A DNA stretch of 64,000 nt from an uncultured Poribacteria bacterium (GCA_951812525.1 OX638316.1:2660506-2724505), one strand, 5' to 3'; positions 40,149-48,678 are shown, numbered from the stretch's first letter. Numbers and translations: made by a program. Notes: generated from the letters alone by a model not told the origin.

Positions 40149-42221
40149 TTACGGAACGGCTTCATATCTGAGAATTGTTCCGTTTTGACCAACTACCCAT
40201 CCACTGTCTGAATTACTCACATAAATAGCTTTCAAATCTGTTCGCGTGTCTGTGCGCTGGGGACGCCAATTCTGTCCACTATCTTTTGTGTGTAGCACAA
40301 GCCCTTCTTTTCCGACGATCCAACCTTTTGTTTCAGAAATAAAAAACACATCGTCAAGGAAATTGGCTGTATGACTCTCTTGGCGATGCCATGTTTTCCC
40401 ACCATTCTCTGTATGAAGAATCAGTCCATCCATGCCTAAACTACGCAGGTCCAGTCCGACCACCCATCCCCTGTCTGCTGTGACGAAAGTAACGGCATCT
40501 AACAAAAAAGATGAATAACTCCTGCTGATAGAGGCAAGGTTCCAGTGTACGCCGCCATCGAGTGTAGAAAGGATTGTACCACTCATGCCAACTGCCCAAC
40601 CGCGCTGTTTTGAGGTAAAGTGAACGTCAAAGAGATTCCAAGTCGTTCCACTCTCTTGGCGTTGCCATGTTTGTCCGCCATCCTCTGTATGAATGATTTC
40701 ACCCGCACTCCCGACGCACCACCCGGTATTTTCGTCTATAAAGAAAACAGCAAGGAGTTCTTGCGTTGTCCCGGAGGCTTGGCGTTGCCACACGCTTCCG
40801 CCATTTGTCGTATGCAAGACCACTCCGGCTTCCGCAACTGCCCACCCTTTTTGTGGAGACACAAAGTGCGTCGCACCGAAACATTCGGTCGTACGGCTGT
40901 CTTGGGCATCCCATACAGACCCGCCGTCTTCGGTTCGTAGTATCGCACCTCGATCACCGACAACATACCCCTCTGTTGAAGAGACAGCACAAACATCCAC
41001 AAGAAGGTGGCTCGGACTCGATTGTGATTCCCATGTTACACCCGCGTTCCGGGTGTGTAAGATTGTGCCGTTCTCACCGACTACCCAACCGAGTTGTTTA
41101 GAGATGAAGTCAACACCTAACAGGACAGCGTCAGCACTGTTGTGAAAACGCGGACCGCCACGTTGATGTTTCCATTTTCCTTTCCCGCCAGAAGAGGTAT
41201 GGAGAATAACGCCTAAGTCGCCGACAATCCAGCCGTTCTGGGAATCTGTAAAGTCGATGTCGTAAAGTGTAAAGGTGTGTAGCGGTTCATTACCGAGATA
41301 CTCTGGCTGTCCATAACTACTTGTATGTCGTTGATTGCTGCCGTGTGTGATGAATTCCCACGTCTTGCCACCGTCGTTTGTCGTGAAAACACTCCGCTGA
41401 TCACCCACAACCCACCCCGTCTCTTTATCTATGAAGTGGAGATTAAAGAGAGCTTGTTCTGTCGAAAACTGCACTTCCCAAGTCTCTCCACTATCCACTG
41501 TTCGATAGATGTAGCCGGAGTGTTCGCGCTTTGTAGCTTGTGAGTTTCCTAATGTTGGCGTGTTGTAGGTGATAATCCATCCTTGGTTTTCGTCTACAAA
41601 GTAGACACCTTTCAAGGACTTTCTTTCAAAGACGCTTGCGTCAACCTTGGTGAAGGTTTTACCACCGTCGGTTGTTTTCAGCAGTGTCCCCCAATCCGCT
41701 ACGATCCAACCTGTAGTTTCGCCTATAAAAATGTTGTGTAGGTTATGTTCCGTGCCTGTTTCAATATGATCCCACGTCTGACCGCCATCAGTAGTGTGGA
41801 TGAGTGTACCGCTTTCACCAAGGCACCATCCCTCTAATGCAGAACGAAAATAGACATTACGTAGAGGTTTATTGAAAACGCCGCTACTTTGCTTGTGCCA
41901 CGTTTGTCCGCCGTTATCTGTATGAATGATGAGACTCTCGGCGTCCTCTGTGAAATCTTGACCAGGTATTACATCTACAGCGTTGCCGACTGCCCAACCT
42001 GCCTGTTCAGAGATAAAATGAACGTCATAGAGATGCGAACTCCAGTCGCCTTCCATGACGGTTTTCCATTCGTATTGGATCTGTCTTTTCGACGTAGTAT
42101 CTTCGCAACCGACAATAGAGAATAGGATGCTGGTAAGCACCACAACAGGCGCGAAAAGTCCTCGCGATCCTTGTTTCAAGGTCCAATTAACGATGGTTCT
42201 GAAAAAGGATTTCGCTGACAT
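40149..42221 (-). CDS. Ycf48-like 14-unit propeller lipoprotein
   Basis: This is a 690-residue exported lipoprotein. A hydrophobic stretch leads to the lipobox SIVGCEDT. The rest consists of 14 Ycf48/BNR-like units, each with a GW(A/V/I)VG turn and many with HTxDGGxTW. Typical units are GWAVGMSGTILSTLDGGVHW and GWVVGENGTILHTRNAGVTW. Ycf48 assists photosystem II assembly in cyanobacteria; here only the fold is shared. ATG 42221 is preferred over an upstream in-frame TTG because of AAAGGATT; even so it overlaps the end of dapB by 35 bases. Likely two stacked propellers; ligand unknown. Confidence 0.82.
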   Translation of the reverse strand: MSAKSFFRTIVNWTLKQGSRGLFAPVVVLTSILFSIVGCEDTTSKRQIQYEWKTVMEGDWSSHLYDVHFISEQAGWAVGNAVDVIPGQDFTEDAESLIIHTDNGGQTWHKQSSGVFNKPLRNVYFRSALEGWCLGESGTLIHTTDGGQTWDHIETGTEHNLHNIFIGETTGWIVADWGTLLKTTDGGKTFTKVDASVFERKSLKGVYFVDENQGWIITYNTPTLGNSQATKREHSGYIYRTVDSGETWEVQFSTEQALFNLHFIDKETGWVVGDQRSVFTTNDGGKTWEFITHGSNQRHTSSYGQPEYLGNEPLHTFTLYDIDFTDSQNGWIVGDLGVILHTSSGGKGKWKHQRGGPRFHNSADAVLLGVDFISKQLGWVVGENGTILHTRNAGVTWESQSSPSHLLVDVCAVSSTEGYVVGDRGAILRTEDGGSVWDAQDSRTTECFGATHFVSPQKGWAVAEAGVVLHTTNGGSVWQRQASGTTQELLAVFFIDENTGWCVGSAGEIIHTEDGGQTWQRQESGTTWNLFDVHFTSKQRGWAVGMSGTILSTLDGGVHWNLASISRSYSSFLLDAVTFVTADRGWVVGLDLRSLGMDGLILHTENGGKTWHRQESHTANFLDDVFFISETKGWIVGKEGLVLHTKDSGQNWRPQRTDTRTDLKAIYVSNSDSGWVVGQNGTILRYEAVP

Positions 42222-42996
42222 CGTGCAATCCTTTAGGGGCATCAACGACCCACCTTGCTGCGCGAATCGCACCTTTAGCAAACGCTTCTCGGCTGTGAGA
42301 GCGATGGATGACGCTTAGTTGTTCACCCGCGGTTGCAAATAACACAGTGTGTTCACCCGCAATGTCTCCGCCACGGATCGCATGCGTCCCGATTTGCTGC
42401 TGAGGTCTCGGTCCAACAATACCGTGACGACCATAAACACCTGCTTCTGACCAGTCACGCCCCAGTGCTGTCGCAATAGCCTCCGATAAATGGAGCGCAG
42501 TACCACTTGGAGCATCTACCTTGCGATTATGATGGGTCTCTATTGATTCAATATCGTAATCATCACCGAGGGCTTTCGCAATTAATTCCAGTGCTTGAAT
42601 CATCACATTGACACCGAGACTCATATTCGGTGCCATCACACAGCGAATCTCTGACGCAAACGCTTTTACCGTTGCCAGTTCATTGGGATTGAAACCCGTT
42701 GTGCCGATCACCATTGCTTTATCGACATTGACAACTTGCCGCAGGTGCTGCACGGTCGGTTCTGGCTTTGAGAACTCGATAACAACGTCCGCACTTTCAA
42801 GCACACCGTCAAGTTCACCTGTGACAGGCACGCTAATCTCGCCAATACCAGCAACAACACCAGCATCATGACCGATTTGTGGGTGTCCGGGATATTGAAT
42901 AGCCCCGACAAGTTCCATATCGGTTTGTTGGGTGATGCCGTGTGTGATACATCGACCCATACGACCACAGACACCGGTGATAGCTACACGAATCAT
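42187..42996 (-). CDS. dapB: 4-hydroxy-tetrahydrodipicolinate reductase, copy 1
   Basis: DapB reduces the product of DapA to tetrahydrodipicolinate with NAD(P)H. The 269-residue product has the nucleotide loop GVCGRMGR, GTTGF, and the catalytic box ETHHNRKVDAPSGTA with both the acid histidine and the lysine. It aligns without gaps to the copy just upstream (43030-43833), with about 77% identity by hand count. AAGGAAATCGGCG precedes the ATG. The gap between the copies is 33 bases. Its 3' end overlaps the start of the Ycf48-like gene. Confidence 0.95.
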   Translation of the reverse strand: MIRVAITGVCGRMGRCITHGITQQTDMELVGAIQYPGHPQIGHDAGVVAGIGEISVPVTGELDGVLESADVVIEFSKPEPTVQHLRQVVNVDKAMVIGTTGFNPNELATVKAFASEIRCVMAPNMSLGVNVMIQALELIAKALGDDYDIESIETHHNRKVDAPSGTALHLSEAIATALGRDWSEAGVYGRHGIVGPRPQQQIGTHAIRGGDIAGEHTVLFATAGEQLSVIHRSHSREAFAKGAIRAARWVVDAPKGLHDVSEILFQNHR

Positions 42997-43029: not shown

Positions 43030-43833
43030 TTATTTTTGAAAAAGGACTTCACTGACATCGTGCAATCCTTTTGGAGCATCGATGACCCACCTCGCTGCCC
43101 GAAGCGCACCTTTGGCGAATGCCTCTGGACTGTGTGCGCGATGGACGACGCTTAATTGTTCACCCTCAGTTGCAAACAACACGGTATGATCACCCGCGAT
43201 ATCACCACCACGAACTGCATGGATGCCAATCTCCTGCTGCGACCTTGCACCAACAATACCGTGGCGACCGTAGACACCTACCTCTGCTAAATCACGTCCT
43301 AATGCTGTCGCAACAGTCTCCGCTAAACGGAGCGCAGTACCGCTTGGAGCATCCGCTTTGTGATTGTGGTGTGCCTCTATTACCTCAATATTGTAATCAT
43401 CACCGAGGGCTTTCGCAATTAATTCCAATGCTTGAATCATCACATTGACACCGAGACTCATATTTGGTGCCATTACGCATCGGATCTGTGACGCAAGTGC
43501 TTTGATATTAGCAAGTTCATCAGCGTCGTATCCGGTTGTAGCGATTACCATTGCTTTGTCGGCAGCGACAACCTCTCGGAGGTGCTCCAGGGTCGCTTCT
43601 GGGCTCGAGAACTCGATGACAACATCCGCACTTTCAAGCACTTCCGCAAGTTCTCCTGTAATGGCGATGCCAGTTTCGCCAATACCAGCAACAACGCCAA
43701 CATCACTCCCAATTTGCGGGTGTTCGGGGTATTCGATCGCTCCAACGAGCTCCATATCGGCTTGTTGGGAAACGCCTTGGGTAATGAGCCGTCCCATGCG
43801 GCCGCATGCCCCGTTAATAATTACACGAATCAT
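43030..43833 (-). CDS. dapB: 4-hydroxy-tetrahydrodipicolinate reductase, copy 2
   Basis: This is the second copy of DapB, 267 residues. The loop is GACGRMGR and the catalytic box EAHHNHKADAPSGTA is intact. The usual GTTG turn reads ATTGY, one glycine changed to alanine near the cofactor. Region 43393-43471 is nearly identical in bases to 42556-42634 of copy 1 (two differences in about 79), far above the rest. It is preceded by AGAGGAAAATTT, itself next to a heptanucleotide array. Two working copies may differ in cofactor (NADH or NADPH) or regulation. Confidence 0.95.
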   Translation of the reverse strand: MIRVIINGACGRMGRLITQGVSQQADMELVGAIEYPEHPQIGSDVGVVAGIGETGIAITGELAEVLESADVVIEFSSPEATLEHLREVVAADKAMVIATTGYDADELANIKALASQIRCVMAPNMSLGVNVMIQALELIAKALGDDYNIEVIEAHHNHKADAPSGTALRLAETVATALGRDLAEVGVYGRHGIVGARSQQEIGIHAVRGGDIAGDHTVLFATEGEQLSVVHRAHSPEAFAKGALRAARWVIDAPKGLHDVSEVLFQK

Positions 43834-43948: not shown

Positions 43949-44902
43949 TCACTTCAAGGTCAGCAGATATGCCAAAAGGTCATGCATCTGCTTCACTGAA
44001 AGAATATCTGCAAAGTTTTCGGGCATAACACCTGCTTGTGGTGTACTAGTAGCCCTTATATCCTTTTTGTAGTAAGTTGTCCACAACTTTCCTGATTCAT
44101 CAAGTATTTGTACAACATCAGGATTCTCTCTATCTCTGTGATCGTACAGATACTTTTTCCTACCGGTGACTTCTTCCCCATCTATAGTGAGGAGCGTGAT
44201 CATTTCATATTCAGGCGCGATATAGGCACGTGGATTGAGAATAGACTCCACAATGAATTGCAAGGAACGCGTGCTAGCGATGTCAGTCAAATCGGGACCT
44301 ATCTCGTGCCCGGTACCTGTAGCACCTCTGCCGTGAACTGTATGGCATTTACCGCAAGCGTATCCATCGGAGAAGAATATTTCCTCTCCGGCTTTGACAT
44401 CACCATCCATATAGGGCATAAATTCCTCGTCAGACTTTATCTCATCCAAGGAAATGCCTGCCGCTTTTGCTTGTTCCGTGCGGAGATAACCGACAATCAT
44501 ATCAATCGCCTCGTCGGAGAGTTTGTCACCGAATTTTTGCATCTCGGTTCCAGGACGACCATCGAATATGGTTTGATAGATACCACTATCTGTCCATCCA
44601 TAGAGCCATTCTGCTTTGAAGAGATCGGGTGCTTGTCCACCACGAGTGCGTCCAGCGTGACAGTTCCAACACATCAAACGAAAATAAAACGCACCATCTA
44701 TGACATCTTCATCATAATTGACTTCACTTGGTGCTGCTGGTGCAACGTCCACCTCCAAGTCTTGCGCATGAAGAAAGAAGTTCACACCTGAAAAGCAAAG
44801 GAGAATGCCCAACACTATGTATAGGGTAGAAGTTGTACGCTCAAACATTTTGGACGCGCGCTTATAAAGCGCGCCTATAAAGCCACAAGTAGAGTGTATC
44901 AT
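43949..44902 (-). CDS. Di-heme cytochrome c with Planctomycete-type heme domain
   Basis: This is a 317-residue exported electron carrier, probably the acceptor for the quinoprotein dehydrogenase two genes upstream. A membrane anchor or signal (TLYIVLGILLCFSGVNFFLH) precedes two heme sites: CWNCH at 78-82 and CGKCH at 183-187. The C-terminal part (HEIGPDLTDIASTRSLQFIV and onward) matches the heme-binding domain common in Planctomycetes. ATG 44902 overlaps the upstream TGA (ATGA) and has AGGAGG ten bases before it. ATG 44849 (MFERTTS) is the alternative; a palindrome lies between the two. Confidence 0.88.
   Translation of the reverse strand: MIHSTCGFIGALYKRASKMFERTTSTLYIVLGILLCFSGVNFFLHAQDLEVDVAPAAPSEVNYDEDVIDGAFYFRLMCWNCHAGRTRGGQAPDLFKAEWLYGWTDSGIYQTIFDGRPGTEMQKFGDKLSDEAIDMIVGYLRTEQAKAAGISLDEIKSDEEFMPYMDGDVKAGEEIFFSDGYACGKCHTVHGRGATGTGHEIGPDLTDIASTRSLQFIVESILNPRAYIAPEYEMITLLTIDGEEVTGRKKYLYDHRDRENPDVVQILDESGKLWTTYYKKDIRATSTPQAGVMPENFADILSVKQMHDLLAYLLTLK
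44857..44875. repeat. Palindrome at the start of the cytochrome c gene
   Basis: GCGCGCTT and AAGCGCGC pair perfectly around ATA. In the frame from ATG 44902 it is translated as part of GFIGALYKRASK, between the start codon and the signal sequence. It may be a REP-like palindrome caught inside a gene end. Confidence 0.5.
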
Positions 44903-45780
44903 TTCTTGTCATCCTCCTGAAACGGAGCGAAGTAAGGTAAATGGTACTTCTGAGAAAGTCCTTTCAATTTTTCCTCACTCCATTTCTGTTCGATAATTGT
45001 GTTAACAGCGTCTTGAAGTGCCTGTGTGTCTAACTTTGGCGTATTTTTGCTAAAAGCAATGGAGACGTTCCAGCGCAGACGAGGCGGAGGGATGTAACTA
45101 TCAACAACCTCTAATTCCGGATAGGCAGTCTCTGTTTGTGCTGCTCGCTGAATTCGTGAGCCTTTTTCAATCAACCAACCAGAGTTTGCCCACATACATC
45201 CGTAAGCGATTTCCCCTTTCTGTAGCGCATCCAGAACTGCAATTTGCGAGGGGTAGATACGTCGGTTATAGCCGGTTTGTCGAAGCACATCACTTGCAAT
45301 TGATCCGGCTTCTGTCCCAATGGTTTCCAATTTGATGTCTTCCAGCGTTTTCGGTGACTTTTGCAAATCCTTCCGCTTTATCAATACATAACCGGTGCCG
45401 TAATACGGTTTTGAAAAGTCAACGCGTTTACCTAACTGGACCGCTTCGCTCATAGCACGCTCTTCGATAGGAATTCCGATGACACAGTCACAGTGTCCGC
45501 GTAACATATCGGCGAGCAAGCTATCTCGGAGCGTGTTAAGCCAGTGGAGTTCCAACTTAACCCCTAATTCCTCTGCCAATAGATGTGCTATCTCAACATT
45601 TAATCCAGGAAGGTCTGGATCGGCATTCGAATACGGCAGATTCCGGACATCCATGCAGACTGTTAACACGCCTTTTTTTTCAATCTCTTCCAAGGCATCG
45701 TCTGCGTCTGCGTCTGCATTGTGCAACATCAAAACGGGCAGCGTAAAAAGCAAGATCCACAAAAGAATACGGTACCTCAC
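44899..45780 (-). CDS. Quinoprotein-associated solute-binding protein (MxaJ/XoxJ-like)
   Basis: This is a 293-residue periplasmic protein of the family that accompanies PQQ dehydrogenases. A signal peptide (ILLWILLFTLPVLMLHNADA) leads to a two-lobe binding fold starting at KGVLTVCMDVRNLPYS, with GHCDCVIGIP and DFSKPYYGTGYVLIKR. MxaJ/XoxJ proteins bind the dehydrogenase and may help to load its cofactor or metal. I choose GTG 45780 because AGGAGGTGTGCGCT precedes it; an ATG at 45801 overlaps the stop of the dehydrogenase gene. It lies between the dehydrogenase and cytochrome c. Confidence 0.85.
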   Translation of the reverse strand: MRYRILLWILLFTLPVLMLHNADADADDALEEIEKKGVLTVCMDVRNLPYSNADPDLPGLNVEIAHLLAEELGVKLELHWLNTLRDSLLADMLRGHCDCVIGIPIEERAMSEAVQLGKRVDFSKPYYGTGYVLIKRKDLQKSPKTLEDIKLETIGTEAGSIASDVLRQTGYNRRIYPSQIAVLDALQKGEIAYGCMWANSGWLIEKGSRIQRAAQTETAYPELEVVDSYIPPPRLRWNVSIAFSKNTPKLDTQALQDAVNTIIEQKWSEEKLKGLSQKYHLPYFAPFQEDDKK

Positions 45781-45800
45781 AGCGCACACCTCCTGTAACA

Positions 45801-47528
45801 TTATTCAAAAAGCGCGAACACGAAGAGCGTTCCCCCGTTGCGGGCGTTAACTTCAGCATATTTCACAGCACCCGATGCTATAGCGACGTATTGGACCCCA
45901 TCAAGTTGATAGGTAATCGGTGGGGCGAGAACCCCTGATCCAGTTTGGAAGTCCCAAAGCACTTCGCCGGTTTCTGCTGATAGTGCCATAAATCTCCCCT
46001 CTAAATCACCCGCAAAAACGAGACCGCCTGCTGTTGTGAGGCAGCCACCCCATTGTGGGAAGTTCGTTTTGTGCCGCCATTTGATTTCACCCGTGGAAAC
46101 ATCAATCGCGCTAATATGACCCCACATTATCATGTCGCCGTCATCGTCCTTTTCTGCTGTCATGCCGCTTCCGACGTATGGTAAGCCTTTTATATAGAAA
46201 ACGCGACCTTGATGGTAGGAACCACAGAGTTCCAGCGATGGGACATAAAGGTAGTTTGTGAGAGGATTATAGGCTGAAGGTGGCCAATTCTTCCCACCTT
46301 CAACGCCAGGGCAGACGCGAATCGTTCCTTCTTCCGTGGTAAACACCCCAGGTTTGACAGTAGGTCTGCCGTTTTCGTCGAGACCTGCAGACCAGTTAAT
46401 TTCGCAATACGTGCTTGCATATAAGAATTTACCGTTGGTTCTATCAAGCACATAAAAATAGCCGTTACGGTTTGCTTGCATCAATGCTTTAGTCGGTTTC
46501 CCATCAACTTCCATGTCAATCAAGACAGGCTCACTCACGCCGTCCCAGTCCCATACATCGTGCGGTGTGGCTTGAAAGTACCAGTTGAGTTCTCCGGTAT
46601 CAGCGTCTAGTGCGACAATGCAGTCAGTATAAAGATTATCTCCCCTGCGGACAGCGCCGTTCCAATCCGGTGCTGGATTACCCGTTCCCCAGTAGACGAG
46701 GTTCAATTCTGGATCGTACGAACCTGTGACCCAAGCCGATCCGCCACCTGTCATCCATGAATCACCTGCCCATGTGTCGCCGCCGGGTTCGTCTTTTGTA
46801 GGAACTGTGTAAAACCGCCATGCTTGCTCACCCGTTTCAGCGTAATAGGCATCGATGTAACCTCGAATGCCATATTCTGCACCTGATATGCCAACAATGA
46901 CTTTGTCCTTGACTACTAACGGAGCAACGGTCAAAGATTCAGCATTGGTTGGGTCTCCGACGACTCGATCCCACAGCACTGTCCCGGTCTTCACATCGAG
47001 CGCGAGGAGATGGGCATCAAGGGTCGTCCAAAAGATTTTATCCCCTAAAATGGCGGCACCTCGATTAACCATGCCGCAGCAAATAGCGAGACCGTCCTGG
47101 AGTGGATAGTTGTATCGCCACAATTCCTTACCAGTCCTTGCATCTACCGCATAGATACTGCTATAGGGAGTGGTGATAATCATGATCCCATTAACAACAA
47201 GCGGAGTACATTCAAACTTATCGAACTCTGTTCCAATTTGAAATGCCCATTTCGGGACGAGTTTTTTGACATTTTCGGTATTAACCTGCGTCAATTCACT
47301 GTATCGCCAACTTCTGTAATCGCGTCCATACATCAGCCAGGATTCAGGATCGTCTTGTGATGAAAGTAGCATCTCATTGGTAACTGGCTGGAAATTATTC
47401 ACATCTGTACCGGCTGTGATAGTACTCGGTATCGCAACAAATACTAAAGCTGCTACAAAAATCGCAAAACTCACGCGTCTCGCGTATAGGCAGCAGCTCG
47501 TTGCTTTGGAGAAAGTGTACCCTTTCAT
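45801..47528 (-). CDS. PQQ-dependent alcohol dehydrogenase, lanthanide-type motif
   Basis: This is a 575-residue periplasmic quinoprotein of the methanol/ethanol dehydrogenase family with no cytochrome domain. Landmarks, numbered from ATG 47528: vicinal disulfide Cys150-Cys151 in AICCGMVNRG, metal ligands Glu218 (SGAEYG) and Asn284 (GTGNPAP), catalytic Asp327 and a second Asp329 in HDVWDWDG. The second Asp is the mark of lanthanide enzymes such as XoxF, ExaF and PedH; calcium enzymes have Ala or Ser there. Asn-to-Asp spacing (43) equals that of XoxF. A signal peptide (VSFAIFVAALVFVAIPSTITA) is present. AAGGAG precedes ATG 47528. The alcohol is unknown. Confidence 0.92.
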   Translation of the reverse strand: MKGYTFSKATSCCLYARRVSFAIFVAALVFVAIPSTITAGTDVNNFQPVTNEMLLSSQDDPESWLMYGRDYRSWRYSELTQVNTENVKKLVPKWAFQIGTEFDKFECTPLVVNGIMIITTPYSSIYAVDARTGKELWRYNYPLQDGLAICCGMVNRGAAILGDKIFWTTLDAHLLALDVKTGTVLWDRVVGDPTNAESLTVAPLVVKDKVIVGISGAEYGIRGYIDAYYAETGEQAWRFYTVPTKDEPGGDTWAGDSWMTGGGSAWVTGSYDPELNLVYWGTGNPAPDWNGAVRRGDNLYTDCIVALDADTGELNWYFQATPHDVWDWDGVSEPVLIDMEVDGKPTKALMQANRNGYFYVLDRTNGKFLYASTYCEINWSAGLDENGRPTVKPGVFTTEEGTIRVCPGVEGGKNWPPSAYNPLTNYLYVPSLELCGSYHQGRVFYIKGLPYVGSGMTAEKDDDGDMIMWGHISAIDVSTGEIKWRHKTNFPQWGGCLTTAGGLVFAGDLEGRFMALSAETGEVLWDFQTGSGVLAPPITYQLDGVQYVAIASGAVKYAEVNARNGGTLFVFALFE

Positions 47529-47638: not shown

Positions 47639-47784
47639 CAAGTGTTAGTTTACTAAAAATCGGATTTTATGTAAAGCCTAAAAATCTTTCAGACTTTCAA
47701 ACGGGATGTTGTGTTTTAGGTATGGTAGAAATGAGTCACGATAGGGCGTTAGAAAAGAAGTTGTCTGTTATGATGCTGTTAGAT

Positions 47785-48678
47785 TTATCCTAACTTAGCC
47801 TGTTCTCCGGCATGATAAGAGCTCCGTACCAAGGGTCCAGATTCCACATGTCGAAACCCCATCTCTGTGCCAGCCTCTTTAAGCTCGTCGAATTCTTCAG
47901 GGGTATAGTAACGCTGAATCGGTAAGTGCCGTGAGGAGGGTGAGAGATATTGCCCGATCGTGAGAATGTCACATCCGGTATTGCGGATGTCCTGCATCGT
48001 CTCTAAAAGTTCTGTCACTGTCTCGCCTAAGCCCACCATGAGTCCAGACTTTGTAAGCATCTGTGTATCAAGCTGCTTGACGATTTGGAGGAGCGTTAAG
48101 GTCTGTTGGTAGTTGGCGTACGGACGGACGCGGCGGTAGAGACGCGCCACGGTCTCTGTGTTATGATTAAGCACCTCAGGACGTGCTTGCACGATGACTC
48201 GAAGTGCTTCCCAATTCCCCTCAAGGTCCGGAATGAGAACTTCGACTGTACATCCAGGTTGTTTTTTTCGAGATTCGGCGATACATTCGGCGAAAACCTT
48301 CGCACCACCATCCGGTAGATCGTCCCGATTGACAGAGGTAATAACCACGTGCTTGAGTTGTAAATGAGCGACAGCCTCACCGATGCGTCTCGGTTCATCA
48401 ATGTCAACAACACCACCGGGCATGCCTTTCTTGACGGCACAAAACATACAACGCCGTGTACAAACATCTCCTAATATCATGAAAGTAGCGGTACGGCTGT
48501 TCCAGCATTCGCCGATATTCGGACAGCGCGCTTCTTCACAGACGGTGTGGAGCTTCAAGTCGCGCATTAATTTTTTTAGTTCAGCGTAGTGCCCACCACC
48601 AGGGATCCGTGCCTTAATCCATGCCGGATGGCGACCTGGCTGTCTATTTGTGTCAACGATTGGGAGGGTTTTAAGCAT
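47785..48678 (-). CDS. lipA: Lipoyl synthase
   Basis: LipA is a radical SAM enzyme that inserts two sulfurs into octanoyl groups on lipoyl domains. The 297-residue product has the auxiliary-cluster cysteines 47, 52 and 58 (CEEARCPNIGEC) and the radical SAM cysteines 73, 77 and 80 (CTRRCMFC). VNRDDLPDGGA and the C-terminal arginine-serine motif SGPLVRSSYHA complete the family set. It starts 36 bases after tRNA-Sec on the same strand and closes the lepA-lepB-selB-selC-lipA run. Confidence 0.96.
   Translation of the reverse strand: MLKTLPIVDTNRQPGRHPAWIKARIPGGGHYAELKKLMRDLKLHTVCEEARCPNIGECWNSRTATFMILGDVCTRRCMFCAVKKGMPGGVVDIDEPRRIGEAVAHLQLKHVVITSVNRDDLPDGGAKVFAECIAESRKKQPGCTVEVLIPDLEGNWEALRVIVQARPEVLNHNTETVARLYRRVRPYANYQQTLTLLQIVKQLDTQMLTKSGLMVGLGETVTELLETMQDIRNTGCDILTIGQYLSPSSRHLPIQRYYTPEEFDELKEAGTEMGFRHVESGPLVRSSYHAGEQAKLG

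Follow-up and report, generated by a model that had tools for sequence, protein, structure and literature searches.

The stretch of DNA analysed here (the window, 64,000 nucleotides; GCA_951812525.1 OX638316.1:2660506-2724505) belongs to an uncultured Poribacteria bacterium, the genome of which is a single 5.06 Mb contig with a completeness of 96%. Its minus strand carries three overlapping genes, for a PQQ alcohol dehydrogenase (ADH), a MxaJ/XoxJ-like protein (J protein) and a diheme cytochrome c. The features of this locus are as follows, with positions counted from the first nucleotide of the window and the evidence in brackets.

47785-48678 (-): lipA-like gene (lipoyl synthase), the upstream flank, which is outside the system and marks the site (Pfam, synteny)
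47647-47675 (-): promoter-like sequence TTTACA-N17-TAAACT upstream of the operon (recurrence across genomes)
45801-47528 (-): ADH (P0001), 575 aa (TIGR03075, PDB alignments, residue map)
47076-47081 (-): codons 150 and 151, the vicinal Cys150-Cys151 (position derived from the start codon at 47528)
46875-46880 (-): codons of Ala217 (calcium-type) and Glu218 (metal ligand) (counted back from the same start codon)
46539-46553 (-): WDWDG, codons 326-330, with the catalytic Asp327 and the extra Asp329 (counted back likewise)
44899-45801 (-): MxaJ/XoxJ-like periplasmic binding protein, SBP_bac_3 (TIGR03871, PDB matches to XoxJ and MxaJ)
43949-44902 (-): diheme cytochrome c (P0003) (two CxxCH; a cytochrome-cL/CcoP-like first domain and a Kustd1711/TIGR02603-like second domain)
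43030-43833 (-): dapB, the downstream flank, outside the system and the first of two tandem copies (Pfam, synteny)

Adjacent genes share 1 nt (TAATG) and 4 nt (ATGA), and their order is kept in the Poribacteria copies with enough flanking sequence. Since the three-gene arrangement is conserved in these copies, it is not due to chance, and the overlapping run described in an earlier note on this DNA has been confirmed. The Poribacteria origin conjectured there also agrees with the closest named relatives of the ADH, which are Candidatus Poribacteria MAGs with at most 94% protein identity. The promoter-like sequence matches the consensus no better than chance and recurs at the equivalent position in many carriers and deletion strains; we count it as evidence because of this conservation across genomes and not because of its consensus score. 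The tandem dapB genes adjoining the operon (42187-42996 and 43030-43833, both on the minus strand) encode proteins with 77% identity, and some relatives have one dapB only. A 710 aa YCF48/BNR-repeat protein is found at 40149-42281 (-); its ORF, taken from a TTG start, overlaps the end of the second dapB by about 95 nt, and the real start probably lies further inside.

Active site, placement and metal of the dehydrogenase

The ADH scored 649 bits against TIGR03075 (curated cut-off, 480) and is the sole protein of the genome above this cut-off, while it scored 523 bits against the acido-empty quinoprotein family TIGR04528, below the cut-off of 650. Its N-terminus resembles a secretion signal. 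In a residue map built against PDB reference sequences, the PQQ/metal site is complete, comprising E106, C150-C151, R156, T200, S215, E218, W266, N284, D327, R354, N414 and W493 together with D329; the choice of these positions follows general knowledge of methanol dehydrogenase structures. The Asp327-x-Asp329 motif reported previously was exact, WDWDG being residues 326-330. The PQQ site is complete in 16/16 Poribacteria rows, apart from one row that is truncated at two positions, and D327 and D329 are present in every one of the 16. The dN/dS of 0.056-0.070 indicates strong purifying selection. Judged by these characters, the protein is a PQQ alcohol dehydrogenase with a complete predicted active site.

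In two trees, the Poribacteria ADHs formed one fully supported clade beside Acidobacteriota and Gemmatimonadota sequences and apart from XoxF/MxaF, PedH/ExaA and type II ADHs; the branch joining them to the nearest Acidobacteriota group has moderate support (91/75). Membership of XoxF/MxaF and of PedH/ExaA (PedH/ExaF type 2b) was rejected by AU tests (p = 0.0019 and 3e-5, respectively), and the ADH therefore belongs neither to XoxF nor to ExaF/PedH. The clade could correspond to a published ADH type missing from our reference set (e.g., 6a, 6b).

Uncharacterised full-site PQQ-ADHs of Acidobacteriota and Gemmatimonadota are 46-51% identical to the Poribacteria ADH and have the same Cys/Glu/Asn/Asp/Asp set, whereas their residue 217 is mostly Gly instead of Ala, and no XoxJ-like gene was matched within their fetched flanks. 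The best solved relative is PedH/ExaF, a lanthanide ethanol dehydrogenase of PQQ-ADH type 2b (453 bits, about 45% identity), in which the metal ligands including the extra Asp are the same. It differs in having Gly217, and a plasmid relative of its clade neighbours the small cytochrome c-550 PedF; a further difference is that no PQQ synthesis was found in the Poribacteria genome. The XoxF-XoxG-XoxJ system has the same kinds of genes (dehydrogenase, J-like binding protein and cytochrome c) and D-x-D, but the Poribacteria ADH lies outside its clade and has Pro287 in place of Thr, and the J protein is below the family cut-off. The TIGR04528 proteins belong to the same wider clade and keep WDWD; unlike these degenerate relatives, the Poribacteria ADH has retained both the Cys pair and the Glu ligand. 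As a side observation, many quinoproteins at the loci L061-L102, mostly of Acidobacteriota, have WDWD without the Cys pair and the Glu ligand. In a Planctomycetota relative (L052, 7233-9989), one ORF of 918 aa matches both dehydrogenase and cytochrome, and this genome has a strong pqqC.

The earlier claim of rare-earth-dependent alcohol oxidation was upheld in part: the PQQ site is complete and has the extra Asp, but residue 217 is of the calcium type and D-x-D is not diagnostic alone. Position 329 is Asp in all four lanthanide references and Ala, Ser or Thr in seven calcium references. Position 217 is Gly in the four lanthanide references and Ala in 16/16 Poribacteria sequences, as in MxaF, and Gly before the Glu ligand is a correlate of lanthanide enzymes with no proven requirement. 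Pro287 is common to PedH, but also to MxaF. Both the Cys pair and the metal-ligand Glu have been lost in 43 of 71 relatives with D-x-D, a proportion that describes sequences fetched with peptide patterns including PHDVWDWD and is no census. Because relatives in which the rest of the site has disappeared still show the motif, it is not diagnostic by itself, and D-x-D counts may overstate lanthanide use; in metagenome surveys, such counts can include proteins without the rest of the PQQ/metal site. The literature reads D-x-D as indicating lanthanide binding that is at least facultative, and 14 of 33 marine phyla are already reported to have lanthanide-type PQQ dehydrogenases (PMC11996626), so that one more phylum adds to a pattern already described. 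In our search, which covered part of the literature, Poribacteria and lanthanides were not named together in any paper. Lanthanide use by the Poribacteria ADH is likely, though unproven.

Partner proteins and PQQ supply

Of the NCBIfam families, the J protein best fits the MoxJ-like one associated with quinoproteins, TIGR03871, at 69.7 bits (cut-off, 212); its score against TIGR03870 was 49.3 bits (cut-off, 258), so that it is below both cut-offs. Its PDB matches include XoxJ (6onp, 38.8 bits) and MxaJ (9ism, 27.4 bits). The MxaJ/XoxJ-like assignment of the second gene is thus supported by its best curated family, though below the cut-off. Its structure model is poor (pLDDT 45).

The cytochrome P0003 (317 aa) has heme motifs CWNCH at 78-82 and CGKCH at 183-187, a first domain similar to cytochrome cL and CcoP, and a second domain matching TIGR02603 over residues 167-314. 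This agrees with the earlier description of an unusual protein with two hemes and a domain common to Planctomycetes, unlike the small single-heme XoxG in size and architecture. The invariant Met121 and Met293 are likely to be the distal heme ligands. Among solved structures, that of Kustd1711 from Kuenenia, an anammox bacterium (PDB 7ZS0), is the closest, with E-values of 1e-40 by sequence profile and about 1e-12 by fold search; both proteins have two heme domains, the C-terminal one is homologous over its full length, and the Met of the second heme of Kustd1711 is also conserved in P0003. The two proteins differ in the first domain, which is cytochrome-cL/CcoP-like in P0003, and in genomic context, Kustd1711 being in the nxr (nitrite oxidoreductase) cluster and P0003 with a quinoprotein (PMC11791136). 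The hemes of Kustd1711 are of high potential, about +350 mV, and tuned by calcium ions, one beside each heme, which are held by backbone carbonyls and a heme propionate (PMC11791136); because of this mode of binding, a calcium site is unreadable from the side chains of P0003. Many ADHs of Acidobacteriota and Gemmatimonadota likewise adjoin a diheme cytochrome related to P0003, upstream of the ADH in those loci and downstream in Poribacteria. Since it stands directly upstream in many acidobacterial relatives, the pairing is shared by the wider clade.

The absence of PQQ synthesis genes noted earlier for the window holds there and extends to the whole genome, in which no pqqB, pqqC or pqqE was found over the curated cut-offs; the search covered these three genes. 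A PqqE candidate at 1.69 Mb (122 vs 381 bits) is a radical SAM protein without recognisable pqq neighbours, and a pqqB match (45 vs 245 bits) was too weak to be accepted. In the phylum, pqqC is absent from 84 of 85 genomes. A Planctomycetota genome served as positive control; its pqqC was detected at 322 bits by the same search, which shows that the method works. The sole pqqC-like match in the phylum is a partial PqqC/TenA-like sequence below the cut-off at a contig edge (L136 3-398 (-), G015:C569); the genome in question is also the only one from another family in which the dehydrogenase occurs. The best local match to E. coli PqqU was 30 bits, with no clear homologue, and there were 16 TonB-receptor matches in the genome. 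It is established that PQQ is scavenged by bacteria which need the cofactor without producing it (PMC12124388), and many XoxF-bearing MAGs are without PQQ synthesis (PMC10875860). The missing pqq genes, together with strong purifying selection on the ADH (dN/dS about 0.06), suggest that PQQ is scavenged; apparently it is not made by these sponge-associated Poribacteria and is presumably taken from neighbours.

Distribution and loss of the operon

The ADH is found in 27 of 85 genomes of the phylum, 26 of them in the genus of the window (38 genomes) and one in another family. In the genus carriers with enough flanking sequence, the operon is between lipA and dapB, and in several non-carriers lipA is directly beside dapB. 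In four of the latter (L140, L141, L146 and L147), of which two belong to the same genus and two to further genera of the family, the lipA-dapB spacer still contains the 3' end of the cytochrome gene (E-values from 7e-40 to 7e-13), and the promoter-like site is still present in three of these spacers (L140, L141 and L146), now facing dapB. From these relics at the lipA-dapB site, the sequences indicate that the operon was present in the ancestor of the family and has been repeatedly deleted. The two relics of the same genus have similar left ends and may represent one deletion event. Recent gain by transfer, considered from the 27/85 distribution, was rejected for the family, as remnants of the last gene occur at this site in non-carriers. 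The copy in the other family, with an ADH 80-83% identical, is on a short contig without lipA and dapB flanks.

Proposed function and its alternatives

We consider it rather probable that the operon encodes a periplasmic alcohol-oxidising chain which uses PQQ and a metal, probably a lanthanide, and that the operon dates from the ancestor of the family, with repeated deletion since. The ADH would bind PQQ together with a metal ion, which is probably a light lanthanide with E218, N284, D327 and D329 as ligands, and would oxidise a small alcohol or aldehyde. The XoxJ-like protein would help to load or activate it, and the diheme cytochrome would accept electrons singly, through its cytochrome-cL-like first domain and Kustd1711-like second domain, and pass them on to the respiratory chain. 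Because the genome has no recognisable PQQ synthesis, we infer that the sponge or fellow symbionts would be the source of scavenged PQQ. Repeated deletion is as expected for a conditionally useful trait. We count in favour of this reading the full site, TIGR03075 above and TIGR04528 below the cut-off, the low dN/dS, D329, the gene order, the absence of pqqC, known scavenging, the homology to Kustd1711 and the cytochrome relics, and against it A217, P287 shared with MxaF, D-x-D in degenerate relatives, the lack of a clear PqqU homologue, the J protein with its low score and poor model, and the lack of Fae.

If the ADH were calcium-dependent, the second Asp would be a clade-wide relic or structural feature and not a lanthanide ligand, and A217 as in MxaF would be in line with this; because WDWD has outlasted the Cys pair and the Glu ligand (now Asp or Gly) in fetched relatives, Asp329 would be conserved there for a reason other than the PQQ metal. 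We regard this as unlikely, since Asp329 occurs in none of the seven calcium references and in all four lanthanide references, and D-x-D is taken in the literature as at least facultative lanthanide binding (PMC11996626). A PQQ-free propeller without redox cofactor, like the acidobacterial "empty quinoproteins" (TIGR04528), would explain why no PQQ genes exceed the cut-offs in the genome and no pqqC is found in the genus, and it is consistent with the 523-bit match and with acidobacterial relatives, many of which have lost the site and most of whose tested genomes lack pqqC. Every PQQ/metal residue is nevertheless kept under strong purifying selection, the family scores point to TIGR03075, and coupling to a diheme cytochrome and a XoxJ-like gene makes little sense without redox chemistry, which makes this alternative quite improbable. 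A true XoxF methanol dehydrogenase supporting methylotrophy, to which the xoxF-xoxG-xoxJ kinds of genes and D-x-D could be attributed, is hardly credible given the rejected XoxF/MxaF grouping and a cytochrome unlike XoxG. A search of 83 genomes of the phylum found no Fae; this speaks against a formaldehyde route of the Fae type, though not against other substrates.

Compared with the earlier note, the chain proposed here adds apparent PQQ auxotrophy, kinship with Kustd1711 and repeated loss of the operon. We tentatively suggest, as a possibility that we hold with some reserve, that an ancestral alcohol-oxidation operon depends on two scavenged cofactors, PQQ from the community and a lanthanide from seawater, and passes electrons to a calcium-tuned diheme cytochrome; it would be a cross-feeding trait in the sponge holobiont, and the deletion of the operon is visible in genomes without it. 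If this is true, a candidate phylum of sponge symbionts would join the rare-earth-using bacteria with an enzyme outside XoxF and ExaF/PedH, and PQQ would become a candidate for a shared nutrient inside sponges.
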